From Acidobacteriota bacterium (GTDB taxonomy: Bacteria; Acidobacteriota; Terriglobia; Terriglobales; Acidobacteriaceae), in NCBI GenBank assembly GCA_021793405.1, contig JAJYSV010000011.1, positions 1 through 64,000 on the forward strand: DNA of 64,000 nucleotides, given 5' to 3'. Positions 450 to 6,918 of the stretch are shown here, piece by piece; the stretch's first letter is position 1; every line of letters starts with the position of its first letter. A program made the translations under genes and the position numbers. A model generated the notes under the pieces. It made no database searches and was not told where the DNA came from. It worked only from the letters and a program-made list of their open reading frames with translations.

Positions 450-839
450 TTGAAGCCGCGCAACTCAATGCTTTTCAGAATCAAACTGTCGCCGCTGATT
501 GGCGCGCCCCAGGATTGCTGTCAATTCATTGGGCGCAAACGGCAGCCAGATAATCGGGGGCACCTATTCGCATCGAATCCCGAGCTGGCCGCGCGCGAAA
601 GCCGCGATTACGAATCCGCCGAACAACTCCTCGAACGCATCCGCGCAGCGAGGGCCGAAGCGGACTCCAAGGAAAGGAATGGGCAAAGCAGGAAAATGTC
701 AGTGCCCAGCAAACGTACCGTGAGGCCCAGTTCGCTCAATCGAGACTTTCGCCTCGACGCTGCATTGAATCAGACGCCGTGCCGGATAGGAACGAATATC
801 TATTCCGCTGGCAGCGGATATTCGCGGCATTCAATCTGA
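450..839 (+). pseudogene. Possible remnant of a type I restriction specificity subunit (HsdS) tail
   Basis: An open frame of 129 codons contains GHLFASNPELAARESRDY followed by ESAEQLLERIRAARAE and a basic, serine-rich tail. This resembles the C-terminus of HsdS proteins, where a conserved ELA-x(n)-EGRDYE-x-AEQLLERI-like helix precedes a lysine/arginine-rich end. The upstream residues do not look like an HsdS target-recognition domain, and the last ~45 residues overlap the toxin gene on the other strand. If the match is real, it is a 3' relic of a restriction-modification operon lost from the island. The call rests on a short motif only and may be wrong. Confidence 0.33.
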
Positions 840-1064
840 TTGCCGAAATACTCAATTTCGAGGATCGCATTCACTGTTTCGCCGTGGCCGATATGCTTCA
901 GCGCAGCTTGAAACAGTTCCCGCTGACGAAGCGGCGTCACATTGGGGACGATGATGATGAGGCCCGCATGGACTGGCGCATGGCGGTACAGCGCGAGAAA
1001 ATCTGCCCGGTTATTGGTCACAAAGGTGTAGTCGTGCTCCAGAATCGTGTCCATCAACTGCTAG

Positions 1065-1874
1065 GGCGCGTTCACACTACGGTCAATCTGTGTTAATGTC
1101 TGTGAATGGAGATCACGGCAGCGCAGTATGAGCGGATCAAGGACGCCTTGCCGGTACAGCGTGGCAATGTTCGCTTGAGTAATTTGAGGTGCTGAACGCG
1201 GTGCTGTACGTTGCCGAACAGGGCTGCAAATGGCGGGGTCTTCCGAAGCGCTTCGGTCGCTGGCACACAATCTACACGCGGATGAATCGCTGGTCGAAGA
1301 ACGGGGTACTGGACCGGGTGTTCGAAAAGTTGCAGGCCGAGCAGATCGTGCGTATCAAGATCGAAGCGTTCGCGCTCGACTCGACCTCGATCAAGGTACA
1401 TCCGGATGGCACTGGCGCTCTAAAAAAAACGGACCCCAGGCCATCGGCAAGTCGCGCGGCGGATGGAACACCAAGGTTCATCTGGTTGCCGCGAATGCTC
1501 GAACGGCCATAACCTTCGCGTTGTCGCCCGGCAACGCTCACGACGCACCCGAAGGACGCGCTCTGTTGACCGAGCTTGGTTCCATGCCGGAGGGCTTGCC
1601 GATGCTGATGGATCGCGCCTACGAGGGCGACGAGACCAGGCAACTGGTGCTCAGCCTGGGCATGATCCCGGTGGTTCCGCCCAAGTCAAACCGCATCGAG
1701 CCATGGGGATACGATCGCGCACTCTACAAAAAACGCAACGAGATTGAGCGGCTGTTCAGAAGGCTCAAAGGCTTCCGCAGAATCTTCTCTCGCTTCGAGA
1801 AACTCGATGTCCTCTTCCTCGGCTTCCTCACCTTCACCCTCATCATCGAAGCCCTGCGTTAGTGTGAACACGCC
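1065..1874 (+). mobile_element. IS5-family (IS427-like) insertion sequence, ~810 bp
   Basis: The ends are inverted repeats: GGCGCGTTCACACTA at the left and the complement of the right end, GGCGTGTTCACACTA, one mismatch in 15. Both sides carry CTAG (1061-1064 and 1875-1878), which fits a 4-bp YTAR target duplication (or TA if the flanking G is counted in the element). The size, the single transposase split over frames and the target site fit the IS5 family, IS427-like group. The element has landed in the middle of a DUF5615-type toxin gene. Confidence 0.85.
1106..1862 (+). pseudogene. IS5-family transposase, two frame changes
   Basis: The protein can be followed across three frames. From ATG 1106 it reads MEITAAQYERIKDALPVQRG up to LSNL (~1186), where one base appears to be missing. 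It continues from LNAVLYVAEQGCKWRGLPKR through LDSTSIKVHPDGTGALKK to a run of eight A at 1422-1429. It then resumes one frame back as NGPQAIGKSRGGW...MDRAYEGDET...NEIERLFRRLKGFRRIFSRF to the stop at 1862. The A-run change is the usual place for programmed -1 frameshifting in IS427-type elements (established for the group). The upstream deletion is not, and probably inactivates this copy. The DDE residues (LDST, DRAYEGD, E of NEIERLF) are all visible. Confidence 0.8.
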
Positions 1875-1993: not shown

Positions 1994-2605
1994 TCAGGCC
2001 ACCGCGCGACGCTGATGTGTCACGCGAACGGGTTTCTGCTTCGCCCAGGGACGCTGAGCCGGACGGCCGCGACGTGGGAACGCCATCATGTAGAGCGGTG
2101 CCAGTTCGACATGCTCGCGGCTCAGAGCAGGGTATCCCTCAAGGATCTCTCCGGCCGTAGCACCCTGAGCAACCATCTCTGCTACCAAGTCGACGGGGAT
2201 GCGGGTTCCCTGAAAAACCGGCGTGCCGCGCATGATCTCAGGATCTGAAACGACCATTCGCTGCACCTTCCGCAGCCGCTTCAATCCCTGTTCCACCTCG
2301 CGGCGCGCATTCTTCACCTCAATGACCAAAGCCGAACCGCCCGAGAGAACGATGGTGTTGATATCCGGCTCGGACACAAGGGCCCGCGCCACTTCGCGTC
2401 GCGTTGCCAGCGGCAGCAACCGTACACCTTCCGCTTCGAGTCTGAGATAGACCAGTTGTTCCGACGAGAGCAACCGCTGCGTTTCCCTTCCCCTGCGCAT
2501 CATCCGGGGACGGATCAGATGGCCATCGATCAGTTTGTTGACCGCTTTCAGGGATAGCTTCGCCACTGCGGAGGCCTGAGCCGGAGTATAGGAATCTTTC
2601 GTCAT
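1994..2605 (-). CDS. DUF433 antitoxin with N-terminal HTH-like domain
   Basis: The protein has 203 residues. The first ~75 (SYTPAQASAVAKLSLKAVNK...RRGRETQRLLSSEQLVYLRL) look like a MerR-type winged helix that reads DNA. Residues ~135-185 form a DUF433 domain: SDPEIMRGTPVFQGTRIPVD, LVAEMVAQGATAGEILEGYP and SREHVELA. DUF433 proteins are the usual partners of DUF5615/PIN-like toxins, and the remains of such a toxin start 3 nt downstream. The antitoxin reading frame is intact although its toxin is broken, so it now appears to be a solitary regulator. It lies inside the putative island, about 190 bp from the tRNA-Pro attachment scar. Confidence 0.8.
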   Translation of the reverse strand: MTKDSYTPAQASAVAKLSLKAVNKLIDGHLIRPRMMRRGRETQRLLSSEQLVYLRLEAEGVRLLPLATRREVARALVSEPDINTIVLSGGSALVIEVKNARREVEQGLKRLRKVQRMVVSDPEIMRGTPVFQGTRIPVDLVAEMVAQGATAGEILEGYPALSREHVELAPLYMMAFPRRGRPAQRPWAKQKPVRVTHQRRAVA

Positions 2606-2790
2606 GGAATAATTCTACCCCAAACAGGGACGATTTATCTGGAAATTGCCGCACTGTAGTCGATTTTGTAGCGGTCAAAGCATCCTGAAGCCACTAAGGA
2701 TCAACAGGGGGCAGACGGCAGGCTGTAACGCTTTCAATCCAAACCAGTTATTTTCTCCAGATTTCAACAGGCTTCCATAAACGGTCTGAC

Positions 2791-2839
2791 CTGCTTTGGG
2801 AGCAGAGGGTCGGGGGTTCGAATCCCTCCGCCCCGACCA
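2791..2839 (+). other. 3' half of tRNA-Pro(TGG): attachment-site scar of a genomic island
   Basis: The DNA reads CTGC-TTTGGGA-GCAG (anticodon arm, anticodon TGG at 2797-2799). It continues with a variable loop, the T arm GGGGG-TTCGAAT-CCCTC and CGCCCCG-A-CCA, i.e. positions ~28-76 of a bacterial tRNA-Pro with encoded CCA. The 5' acceptor strand and D arm, expected at ~2763-2789 (CGGGGCG...), are absent; that DNA is unrelated. A 3'-only tRNA copy is the classical product of integrase-mediated insertion into a tRNA gene. Given the strand, the island lies to the left and the intact tRNA-Pro should be at its far end, outside the window. Confidence 0.75.
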
Positions 2840-3270
2840 TTCGATATCGTTCGTCATCGACATGCCGCGCATCATGGACGCCCGATAGCGCTCTATCTGT
2901 GGATGGATTCCCGTCCGATTCCCGGCTGGGAACAGAGCGCGTATTTCAATACGCATACCTCTTTAGCCGATGCGAAATCCTCGCCATGGGACATAATGTC
3001 CCGTCAGCCTGTCGTCTGACGGTTACTAGTAACCGAAATTATGAGATCGGATGACTAATTTGCAAATAGACATGTGAATACACGCGATTCTTTGCGGGAA
3101 GATTCATTGGAATGATGCCGATGTGTGCGTGGTACGGTTCCTGTATCGTTCGGTTGTCGTCCTGGGGGGAACGGTCGCTGATTGAATCCATCTCCCATGG
3201 TCGCGGTCTAGCAAGCGAACGAAGTGAGACTCTTTATCACAGGTACCTAACCTGCATCACGAGAGGAAAT
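2840..3270. other. Gene-poor spacer with four clustered palindromes (2939-3034)
   Basis: No gene is supported here. Four short inverted repeats follow each other. GCGTATT/AATACGC is at 2939-2954. GGGACA-taa-TGTCCC is at 2988-3002. CCGTCAG/CTGACGG is at 3001-3022. The perfect palindrome GGTTACTAGTAACC is at 3021-3034; the last two share bases. They lie just outside the tRNA-Pro scar and 240 bp before the next gene. They could be protein-binding sites, an integration or recombination site, or structured RNA; nothing in the sequence decides. Confidence 0.5.
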
Positions 3271-3528
3271 ATGACAGTCAAAACCCTTGGTTCTCTTGTA
3301 CAACCGTTCATGAATGATCCTGAAAACACTCGCACGAGAAACATGAAACCCGTAAAACTCACCACTACTAACGCGCTTATCTCCGATGAAGCCATGACGT
3401 GCGTTCAGATATTTGCCGATACCACCGGTCTTCCCTTGGATTGCATTGTCAGCGAGGCGCTCTTGTACTGGTGGGATACAAATGCCGGAGATGTTGTGTC
3501 TCAATTAGAGCGTTGCTACATGAACTAG
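3271..3528 (+). CDS. Small hypothetical protein, RHH-like helical C-terminus
   Basis: This is an 85-residue protein. ATG 3271 was chosen because GAGAGGAAAT stands directly in front of it; the frame stays open upstream but lacks a comparable site. The N-terminal third is polar. The rest, ISDEAMTCVQIFADTTGLPL-DCIVSEALLYWWDT, has the spacing of two helices, as in ribbon-helix-helix (CopG/Arc-like) proteins, so a small DNA-binding protein is possible. That is inference only, and no family was recognised. It stands alone beside the island boundary, with an imperfect hairpin GGGCAGG/CCTGCCC (3560-3585) shortly after its stop. Confidence 0.55.
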   Translation: MTVKTLGSLVQPFMNDPENTRTRNMKPVKLTTTNALISDEAMTCVQIFADTTGLPLDCIVSEALLYWWDTNAGDVVSQLERCYMN

Positions 3529-3838
3529 CTGATGTGGGTATTGTGTACGGTTTCACAAGGGGCAGGGGCTATTTGAGACCTGCCCTTCGTGATGCGCCTA
3601 TTTGTCCTAGAACACAATGACATTCCCGCGCACGCTGTTTTGAATTGTTCCCGTTGTGCATAAATCTTACAGAGGTGCGCGGACAAATAGAATCCATTGC
3701 TTCGTGCCTTCCCGGGTAGCCATAAAAATTAGCGATGGCAATTCTTTAGTGAGATCAAAGAGCGTTGGCCAGTATCGAGGACCTCAATCGCACACCCGTA
3801 CTTGCCTGTTAGTCAATTTTCGCGGGTTGGAGATGCGG
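3529..3838. other. Spacer between the small ORF and the MFS gene
   Basis: This 310-bp stretch holds no supportable gene. The only structure seen is the hairpin at about 3559-3586 (AAGGGGCAGG...CCTGCCCTT, one bulge), without a clear T-run. It may end transcription of the small gene. The MFS gene converges on this region from the right. Confidence 0.4.
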
Positions 3839-5134
3839 CTAGACTCTGGGATCCCGATACACGTCTGTCGCAACCAGGGTCGCGCCGGCGACGCTTGGCA
3901 GCGGAAGGCGACCTGTCCAATTGGCCCAACCCCAGAAGATTGCGGTGGTGGAACTGAGCACTCCCGCAACTGTGCCGATGACGCGCGGGCTGTAGTGTGT
4001 GGAAGCGATGCCGGCACCCATCATCGATACCATCATCATGGTCCAGGTGAGCGTTTCGATGGTGGCGAAGACACGTCCGCGATAGCGGTTGGTGACAGTG
4101 CGCAGGAGATACGAGTAGTTCAGGATCGAGTTGACGGCGATGCCGCTGCGCGACACAAAGATGAAGAGCAACGCCATATCGAACCGCTGGGCGCGGCTGA
4201 AAGCCACATAGGCTGCTCCATGGATCAGGTAGTCGATGAAGACGATGAGTTTGTAAGCGTCGAACGAGAGCCATTTACCAAGCCAGTTCGCGAGAACTCC
4301 GCCGAACAGCAGGCCCAGGCCGGCGCAGCCCCAGATGATGCCAATCCCGGAAGCTCCGCGATTGAAGACCAGTTCGCCGAAGAGCGTGAAGAGTATTTGG
4401 GCCGCGCCGCCTCCCATGGCCCACCCCACGGAAAGCAGAGCGATGGCAAGCACCAGGGGCACGGAGCGCATGTAACGCAGGCCTTCGCGATACTCGTGCC
4501 AGGGCCGGATCACCTCATCTTCGACATGCGCCTTGTGCTGGGCGCGGAAGCCGTGGGCGTCGGGCGCTCGGAGATGCCAGATACACCAAGCGGAAAAGAC
4601 AAACGAGAGCGCGTTGAAGATGAATGCCCATTTGTAGCCGATGGCGACGACGGTGGCGCCAAGAAATGTTCCCACGGTGAGGGTCATCCACTGGGTGGTC
4701 TGGGTCAGCGAGTTGGCGGTGTGGATTTCATCCTCGTCGGCAATCGTCGGCAGGATGGCAGAGCGCCCCGCAGTGAAGAAGGGGGAGGCGACCATGAGCA
4801 GCGTGCTGAACAGGTACAGAACCCAAATGCGCTGCGTGGTCACAGAGAAGATGAAGCCGAGCGCCACCAGGGCCCGCATCAGATCGCTGGCAATCATGAT
4901 CTGTTTGCGATCCAGCCGATCGAGCAACACTCCAGCGACGGGGCCCATGGCGATGGCTGGGACCGCACGCGCCAACAGGACGCCGGTGACGACCATGCCC
5001 GAATGCGTGAGAGCCATGGCCAGCGCAAAGACAGCAATGTTGTTGAAATTGTCGCCAATTTCGCTGACAATCTGCCCCATCCAGGTGTAGCGATAGTTGC
5101 GATTTCGCCGGAGCAACTGGAAAAATTCGCGCAT
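3839..5134 (-). CDS. MFS transporter (EntS/MFS_3-like exporter)
   Basis: The protein has 431 residues with about 12 hydrophobic segments, typical of the major facilitator superfamily. The N-terminus FQLLRRNRNYRYTWMGQIVS and the loop GVLLDRLDRKQIMIASDLMR carry the MFS motif between helices 2 and 3 (D-R-x-x-R-K/R). A second related loop, NRYRGRVFATIETLTW, follows helix 8. This pattern fits the MFS_3/enterobactin-exporter-like group, which exports small molecules across the inner membrane. The substrate is unknown. It is transcribed away from the secreted protein gene at 5373, leaving a ~240-bp divergent promoter region. Nothing suggests an operon. Confidence 0.85.
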   Translation of the reverse strand: MREFFQLLRRNRNYRYTWMGQIVSEIGDNFNNIAVFALAMALTHSGMVVTGVLLARAVPAIAMGPVAGVLLDRLDRKQIMIASDLMRALVALGFIFSVTTQRIWVLYLFSTLLMVASPFFTAGRSAILPTIADEDEIHTANSLTQTTQWMTLTVGTFLGATVVAIGYKWAFIFNALSFVFSAWCIWHLRAPDAHGFRAQHKAHVEDEVIRPWHEYREGLRYMRSVPLVLAIALLSVGWAMGGGAAQILFTLFGELVFNRGASGIGIIWGCAGLGLLFGGVLANWLGKWLSFDAYKLIVFIDYLIHGAAYVAFSRAQRFDMALLFIFVSRSGIAVNSILNYSYLLRTVTNRYRGRVFATIETLTWTMMMVSMMGAGIASTHYSPRVIGTVAGVLSSTTAIFWGWANWTGRLPLPSVAGATLVATDVYRDPRV

Positions 5135-5372
5135 CAGCTGACTCGACTTCCCGAGGACGGAGTGGATCGCGTCGCGATTTCGTCATTCATTGCATCCAGC
5201 GTATCAAAGGTCAGAAAATGGGTCCGCATGGATTCTGTTGCCGGGTATCCTGGGCGCGAAGGGGCGCATATGGGGCGCATATTCCGGAGGGGCTGGTGGA
5301 CGCGGCGGTTGTTTTCCCTGGAATTGGTCAAGATAGAATTGGATAGAACCAAGGGTAGATCCTATTCTTACT

Positions 5373-6500
5373 TTGCGAAGCGCGTGTCCCCTGATATTCA
5401 CCGTCTTCCTGGCTGGGATGCATGGTCCCCGCATGCACGCGCAGTCTGCTCCGGAGCCATCCATTCCCTCAACTTCGTCTTCTACAACTGCGGTTGCGGC
5501 GGGGACTTCCAGCCAAGCGGCCACCTCCAACCTGGCGCCGGATAGCAATGAGCAGGCCGCGGCAGAACCTGCGTCGATGGGAAGCATTCGCGGAACCGTG
5601 ACAGCCTCGGATGGAGATGTCGTTGCGGGCGCCCTGGTCACGCTGGTGGCGGAAGCATCCAAATCGCAACGCACGGTCCTGACTGATGCCGCCGGAACCT
5701 TCAATTTCACTGGGCTGGGCGCAGGGACGTTTCAACTCACCGTGACGTCGAATGGATTTGCGCCTTGGGCCTGTACCAAAATTGTTCTGGAGCCGCGGCA
5801 AAATTATCAAGTGCCGCCGATTGCGCTGGCGGTCGCGACCGCCAGCACGACCGTCACGGCGGTGTTCACCGGGCACGATCTGGCGGAACAGCAAGTGCAT
5901 GTGGAGGAGAAGCAGCGGGTACTCGGGATCGTCCCCAACTTCTACACCACCTATGTGTGGAATGCGGAGCCGTTAACTTCGAAGCAGAAGTTCCAGCTCG
6001 CGTGGAGGACCTCGATCGATCCCGTGACTTTTCTGGGTTCCGGCGTGATCGCGGGAATTGAGCAGTGGCAAAACGATTTCAGCGGGTATGGTCCGGGCAT
6101 CGAGGGCTATGCCAAGCGGTATGGCGCGAACTATGCCGATGGCTTCATCGGGGTCATGATCGGCGGTGCAATTCTTCCATCGATCCTGCATCAGGACCCG
6201 CGCTATTTTTACAAAGGCACGGGCAGCATCCGCTCGCGGGCGCTGTATGCCATTTCGACGACTGCGATTTGCAAGGGAGACAATGGCCAATGGCAGCCGA
6301 ATTACTCCAATGTACTGGGCACGGTGGCCGCGGCGGGGATCTCAAACGCGTACTATCCCGCGAACGACCGCGGGGTACTATTGACCATCGACAATTCGTT
6401 GATCGGCTTGGCCGCAGGCGCAGGAACCGCATTGCTGCAAGAATTTCTTTTGCGCAAGATCTCGCGCGGGGTTCCGGCCTCGGCAGACGCTCAGCCGTAG
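5373..6500 (+). CDS. Secreted protein with carboxypeptidase-regulatory-like domain
   Basis: The protein has 375 residues. A signal peptide (hydrophobic core LIFTVFLAG, likely cut after HAQ at ~24) is followed by a low-complexity Ser/Thr/Ala linker. Next comes a carboxypeptidase-regulatory-like beta-sandwich at ~70-150 (GSIRGTVTASDGDVVAGALV...TDAAGTFNFTGLGAGTFQLT). This domain is very frequent at the front of acidobacterial surface proteins. The rest (~160-375) is glycine-rich with probable membrane-active segments (DGFIGVMIGGAILPSILHQD, GLAAGAGTALLQEF) and was not assigned. The start is TTG 5373, because an in-frame stop lies at 5334-5336 and no ATG precedes the signal peptide. A cell-envelope role is likely. 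Confidence 0.75.
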   Translation: MRSACPLIFTVFLAGMHGPRMHAQSAPEPSIPSTSSSTTAVAAGTSSQAATSNLAPDSNEQAAAEPASMGSIRGTVTASDGDVVAGALVTLVAEASKSQRTVLTDAAGTFNFTGLGAGTFQLTVTSNGFAPWACTKIVLEPRQNYQVPPIALAVATASTTVTAVFTGHDLAEQQVHVEEKQRVLGIVPNFYTTYVWNAEPLTSKQKFQLAWRTSIDPVTFLGSGVIAGIEQWQNDFSGYGPGIEGYAKRYGANYADGFIGVMIGGAILPSILHQDPRYFYKGTGSIRSRALYAISTTAICKGDNGQWQPNYSNVLGTVAAAGISNAYYPANDRGVLLTIDNSLIGLAAGAGTALLQEFLLRKISRGVPASADAQP

Positions 6501-6558
6501 AACGGGACGCGGACACAGAAACAGACCGGGGCTAGCTGCGCGGATCTGGGTCGCGCGG

Positions 6559-6847
6559 CTATTGCGACGGCGCGGGCAGGATTTCGAGCTGGTCTCCGGG
6601 TTGGATGCCTCGCCGCTGGATCGATCCGGCAGGCAATTCGACCACAGAATGGATCTTCCAACTCACTGGGCTGATCCTCCACGGACGAATCCTGGGCCAG
6701 ACCGCGCGGACCCTATGCTGGCGGTCGAGCGCGACTACGTCAAAGGCAAAGAGCATCCCCGAAGGTGTGCACGCCGGAGGACGGCCGAATCCACAGGCCG
6801 GCATCCGCATCCAGCCGCCTTCGGCCCAGCAATCCAATCAGGCGCAT
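6559..6847 (-). pseudogene. DUF192 family protein, frameshifted
   Basis: Two frames join into one DUF192 protein. From ATG 6847 the reading is MRLIGLLGRRRLDADAGLWI, then RPSSGVHTFG. At the four-base C run 6757-6760 (GGGG on the coding strand) one extra base shifts the frame. The protein then continues as MLFAFDVVALDRQHRVRAVW, followed by SVVELPAGSIQRRGIQPGD. Three G would restore it. The HTFGM-x-F-x-x-D-VVALD pattern is diagnostic of this small, probably periplasmic family of unknown function. The upstream frame stops at TGA just before the ATG, so the N-terminus may also be damaged. A sequencing error in the homopolymer is possible. Confidence 0.62.
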
Positions 6848-6918
6848 AAGGAACGTATCGGCCAGCCGTCAAAGCAGTTCGGCATCCAACGTGAAATTCA
6901 CGGTCTACCGTTAGGCGC

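Follow-up and report, generated by a model that had tools for sequence, protein, structure and literature searches.

The window analyzed here comprises the leftmost 64 kb of contig C69 in an Acidobacteriota genome assembly (G000; 4.6 Mb in 137 contigs). Read from its left end, it first holds the 3' tail of a type I restriction specificity gene, hsdS (546-710, plus strand), the rest of which is missing; the tail is 61% identical over 46 aa to the HsdS C-terminus of an element in a related genome, G172 (E 3e-14). Next come two pieces of a DUF5615 toxin-like gene on the minus strand, one at 810-1064 (79% DNA identity to an element of genome G393) and one at 1879-1993, where the DNA match to the G393 element resumes from 1898; DUF5615 was identified in the uninterrupted G172 homolog. 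An IS5-type insertion (1065-1874, plus strand) sits between the two G393-like blocks and thus splits the gene. Its transposase, in two frames, matches PF13340 and PF01609, and its inverted ends and a CTAG repeated at both edges can be read in the sequence. A DUF433 (COG2442-like antitoxin) gene follows (1994-2605, minus strand; PF04255, E 2.3e-18), then a conserved arm (2654-2790) and a 49-bp tRNA fragment (2791-2839). The original prediction had listed an IS element, a broken toxin gene and a possible restriction remnant beside this fragment, and all three are present. The right flank (2840-6890), with an MFS transporter gene (3839-5134, minus strand), lies outside the element and is variable within the genus. 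The sole ARAGORN call in the window is a 101-nt "tRNA-His" (tRNA-His(ATG), 1446-1546) inside the IS transposase gene, which is spurious.

The fragment at 2791-2839 (plus strand) is a displaced 3' half of tRNA-Pro(TGG), from the anticodon arm to CCA. A search of the genome with the 49-mer found a second, identical copy inside an intact tRNA-Pro(TGG) gene on another contig, C42 (gene at C42:15027-15103; 49/49 bases against C42:15055-15103). The first base of the repeat coincides with that of the 5' strand of the anticodon stem, and its last bases are CCA. No tRNA was called by ARAGORN at the window site and no 5' half was found there, as expected of the isolated tRNA-Pro half that had been described. 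Exact identity over 49 bases is far beyond chance.

Immediately left of this core is a 137-bp conserved recombination arm, the P arm (2654-2790, plus strand; nhmmer E 2e-43), the first bases of which are TGTAGTCGATTTTGTAGCGGT. It starts with an arm-type repeat, TGTAGTCGATTTTGTAGCGGTCAAAG, from 2655 on (2655-2676). On C42 the repeat recurs about 70 bases past the intact tRNA-Pro, and on C60 it flanks a diverged tRNA-Pro 3' half on either side. Arm sites of an integrase would be arranged in this way. The P arm plus core of the window would be attR, the core plus P' arm of C42 would be attL, and the P-core-P' arrangement on C60 would be an attP-like site or a tandem junction. G000 keeps both attL and attR, with the P' half at C42:15078-15208 and the P half plus core at window positions 2654-2839. 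Given the conserved P arm left of the copy and the matching arm after the intact tRNA gene, 2791-2839 is very probably the attR of a tRNA island and thus a real island scar. That the two ends are on different contigs of G000 counts against this model.

A scan of 84,980 species genomes for the repeat motif returned 12 stretches, 11 of them from Acidobacteriota, and these relatives assign the window to that phylum as well. When the full att site was compared with 398 genomes of the family, arm-bearing matches were seen in about 38, a set compiled by hand from the match listing. With models of the two att halves, 31 different P sites were detected, whose arm blocks are strongly conserved; 23 of the sites run on into the tRNA 3' half. 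In the other eight (L090, L097, L132, L091, L131, C60:10386, and G317 2741 and 10713) the anticodon arm is retained but is followed by DNA that does not belong to a tRNA and shows partial similarity from genome to genome; candidate readings are a second type of P' half and a shared secondary target.

The same arms also flank fragments of tRNA-Pro(CGG), which is thus a second target. In G000, a tRNA-Pro(CGG) 3' fragment lacking a P arm lies at C33:11793 (L203), and no intact tRNA-Pro(CGG) was found in the assembly with up to 2 mismatches, perhaps owing to an assembly gap. Two further att sites of the family are on C60 (10386-10536 and 21843-22107; L008, L007), one a P-core-P' site whose 3' half is of the tRNA-Pro(CGG) type, the other a P arm with a truncated core. 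Both are beside toxin-antitoxin-like genes, with no tRNA gene nearby. A sister system is found on contig C7 of genome G317 (L205, L208, L210), where an intact tRNA-Pro(CGG) with a P' arm lies at 153.5 kb and P-core sites at 118.4 and 94.6 kb delimit two units in tandem, about 35 kb and 24 kb long; its integrase, 51% identical, is at 135.6 kb, inside the first unit.

The DNA left of 2790, which had been predicted to be island DNA throughout, is element DNA: two blocks of the window (810-1064 and 1898-2834) align at 77-79% identity with the DNA at the attR end of the element in G393. Read towards attR, the right end of the G393 element consists of hsdR-hsdM-hsdS, a DUF5615/DUF433 pair, the P arm and the core. 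The window keeps that end as an hsdS tail, the IS-cut toxin gene, the antitoxin gene, the arm and the core. DUF433 was present in 9 of 42 proteins sampled beside P arms. In Synechocystis, pairs of a DUF433 (COG2442) protein and a PIN toxin have been shown to work as toxin-antitoxin systems (PMC3834315). As in those PIN-COG2442 VapBC loci, a DUF433 antitoxin-type protein here adjoins a toxin-type gene, but the partner in the window is DUF5615, its gene is broken and the two form a putative toxin-antitoxin pair.

Related genomes contain complete elements bounded by two copies of the core: 2328 bp in G144, 2407 bp in G302, 2707 bp in G367, 16514 bp in G172, 32967 bp in G307 and 33825 bp in G393. 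In each of the six the two ends share a replicon and are correctly oriented and spaced. The scar had been attributed to an integrase acting in tRNA-Pro, and every related attL end that was checked does lie within that gene: an intact tRNA-Pro(TGG) is present at all 18 distinct loci of attL pattern (22 sequences), and in most of them tRNA-His(GTG) is next to it, an arrangement also seen on C42. The tRNA halves of element and host are not identical in G367. There, comparison of attL with attR narrows the crossover to a stretch of about 19 bp that lies between CTG[C/T] and the T stem, in the region of the anticodon arm. P-core-P' junctions were seen in G172, L099, C60 and others, which suggests tandem accretion. 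Both 33-kb elements, those of G307 and G393, encode a tyrosine integrase and contain type I restriction genes, and the one in G393 also has a DUF433/DUF5615 pair at its attR end. Other genes of these two elements (L139, L140, L145, L146) accompany the type I restriction genes and include a CapP-like gene, BilC/BilD-like and E1-E2-like proteins and a large serine recombinase.

The tyrosine integrase of G307 and G393 (PF00589, 373-391 aa) is encoded in mid-element and not at the tRNA gene. Homologs of this cognate integrase (64-79% identity) were found in 5 of the 398 genomes, and all five have arm-bearing att sites (Fisher P 6e-6, computed with the hand-compiled genome set). In G228 and G181 the integrase is on the same contig as attL and downstream of it. 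An integrase encoded upstream of a tRNA-Pro (L092) was considered as the cognate enzyme; it gave weak matches in G000 and was replaced by the mid-element integrase. In G000 itself, PF00589 had no match on C42, C60 or C69, and no relative of the cognate integrase was detected in the assembly at E <= 1e-40, the island interior being incompletely assembled. The prediction of an intact tRNA-Pro(TGG) accompanied by an integrase gene further left therefore fared unevenly: an identical intact gene exists, on C42, but an integrase adjoining it was rejected, as none was found. Since the predicted integrase is absent and the assembly has no close homolog of the cognate one, the G000 copy of the element is probably decayed.

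We consider it highly probable that integrase-mediated insertion of an island into tRNA-Pro(TGG), with the window fragment as attR, accounts for the locus as a whole. A tyrosine integrase would have put the island into the gene by recombination in the anticodon arm. The element's own tRNA 3' half would have restored the intact gene at attL, now on C42 and followed by the P' arm, and the original 3' half would have been displaced to the far end, beside the P arm, as attR in the window. C42 and C69 would hold the two ends of one element, the right end of which would comprise, left of the core, the hsdS tail, the DUF433/DUF5615 toxin-antitoxin pair and the P arm. With its toxin gene split by an IS, only a tail of hsdS and no cognate integrase found, the G000 copy has probably decayed and would now be immobile.

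A refinement of this explanation, not opposed to it, is that the element is a cis-mobilizable remnant (CIME), in which the middle of a larger integrase-bearing island was lost and the att sites were kept, so that only a related element could move it. We lean towards this reading. Both att halves are present in G000 and the cognate integrase was not found there, the long G393 element has a DUF433 pair at its P-arm end, and short integrase-less elements with both att sites exist in G144, G302 and G367 (2.3-2.7 kb; two of the three have PIN toxin genes at the P-arm end). A fourth short candidate, in G290, has a mutated right core. However, the middle of the element is outside the G000 assembly and the integrase may sit in the missing stretch.

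The position of the fragment in the present chromosome is a separate question. Synteny of the window with three members of its genus, G062, G172 and G114, begins only near 6890, at a place unlinked to tRNA-Pro in G062. From there on C69 is core DNA syntenic with G062:C27 and not with the tRNA-Pro contig, G062:C73, and C42 beyond about 28 kb is likewise core DNA located elsewhere in G062; rearrangement has therefore occurred. Past island DNA and IS elements, C42:28020-33075 carries fad genes that in G062 are on C49, 15-20 kb from tRNA-Pro(CGG), which suggests rearrangement between the two tRNA-Pro regions. Comparison with relatives gave no clean empty site in G062, G114, G138 or G186, and window positions 2840-3900 had no match to the sequence right after tRNA-Pro in G062, G114 or G138. 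A join of C42 and C69 through their shared 127-bp right ends was rejected: both contigs end at this repeat in the same direction, and we read it as an assembly repeat rather than an overlap.

These data raise the possibility that the fragment is an att site now away from its native tRNA-Pro, a piece of attR or of a tandem junction moved by IS-mediated or homologous rearrangement, in which case 2839 would be no present-day boundary. The synteny of C69 with G062:C27, the link on C42 between island DNA and the fad genes of G062:C49, and the P-core sites of C60 with no tRNA gene nearby all speak for such a move. We nevertheless think it unlikely, as the MFS gene, which begins 1 kb to the right of the fragment, has an ortholog that neighbors tRNA-Pro in G062. 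A single contig of this sister species holds both the MFS ortholog and the DUF4112-tRNA-Pro block, 4.2 kb from each other, and in G019 they are about 80 kb apart on one contig in the same order and orientation. This proximity supports insertion at tRNA-Pro. In G062, however, the intervening 4.2 kb is different DNA, in which there are PIN/Phd toxin-antitoxin genes resembling those of the small elements. The description of the fragment as the outer boundary of an island is thus correct as far as the att architecture goes; it is unproven for the chromosome as it now stands, in which 2840 to about 6890 is variable within the genus and the locus has been rearranged.

The short elements are simply explained by internal deletion, and active cassette shuffling by them is possible. 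That they are trans-mobilized units, with a resident integrase moving toxin-antitoxin cassettes into and out of tRNA-Pro(TGG) and the sister tRNA-Pro(CGG) system doing likewise with its own diverged integrase, seems to us quite doubtful. For the 49-mer, origins that have nothing to do with integration (a tRNA pseudogene or a duplication) or an artefact of assembly are most improbable: the window is at a contig end adjoining IS elements, but the repeat has the same first base in other elements and adjoins the conserved arm present at 30 other sites, an architecture that already contradicts such an origin.

Insertion by an integrase, the reading we prefer, places the locus among the anticodon-centered tDNA islands of Islander, a database that holds 2083 islands with such sites (PMC4383910), and the anticodon-arm part of the mechanism is thus already established. 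As in those islands, there is an intact tRNA gene at one end and an identical displaced 3' fragment at the other, here on C42 and in the window of the same genome, the crossover falls in a known tRNA sublocation, the anticodon arm, and the complete members have a tyrosine integrase. Unlike in those islands, the integrase of the complete relatives is in mid-element rather than beside the tRNA. Islander would not call the G000 island, as the integrase was not found and the ends are on different contigs. Islands that have att sites but no integrase are a known type, the CIMEs, covered in a review of IMEs that cites Pavlovic 2004 (PMC5704250). CIMEs as described there likewise have attL and attR without integration genes and form tandem arrays with attP-like junctions, comparable to the P-core-P' sites of G172, L099 and C60; the present elements, which are putatively mobile, differ from them in their Acidobacteriota host, tRNA-Pro target, integrase and arm sequence. 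In Dehalococcoides, tandem integrase-less islands occupy ssrA (PMC3146451). Those are also tandem and bounded by copies of an RNA gene end, many of them without an integration module, but they involve a serine recombinase and ssrA rather than a tyrosine integrase and tRNA-Pro. A Tycheposon is a cargo element that starts with a complete tRNA gene and has its own tyrosine recombinase (PMC10872708); by that description the present elements would differ, having a displaced 3' fragment and the intact tRNA at the chromosomal side.

Among the open-access papers searched, none brings together tRNA-Pro, a genomic island, an integrase and Acidobacteria. The tRNA-Pro island family is apparently undescribed but conventional, tandem integrase-less tRNA islands being already known. 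For the Acidobacteriota, on which we found little published about such elements, it adds a well-delimited island family with a named target, an arm sequence, a crossover region and a candidate integrase, by which its islands, integrase-less ones included, can be precisely found and delimited. As the long elements carry defence-type genes and toxin-antitoxin pairs, tRNA-Pro appears to be a hot spot for defence in this group.
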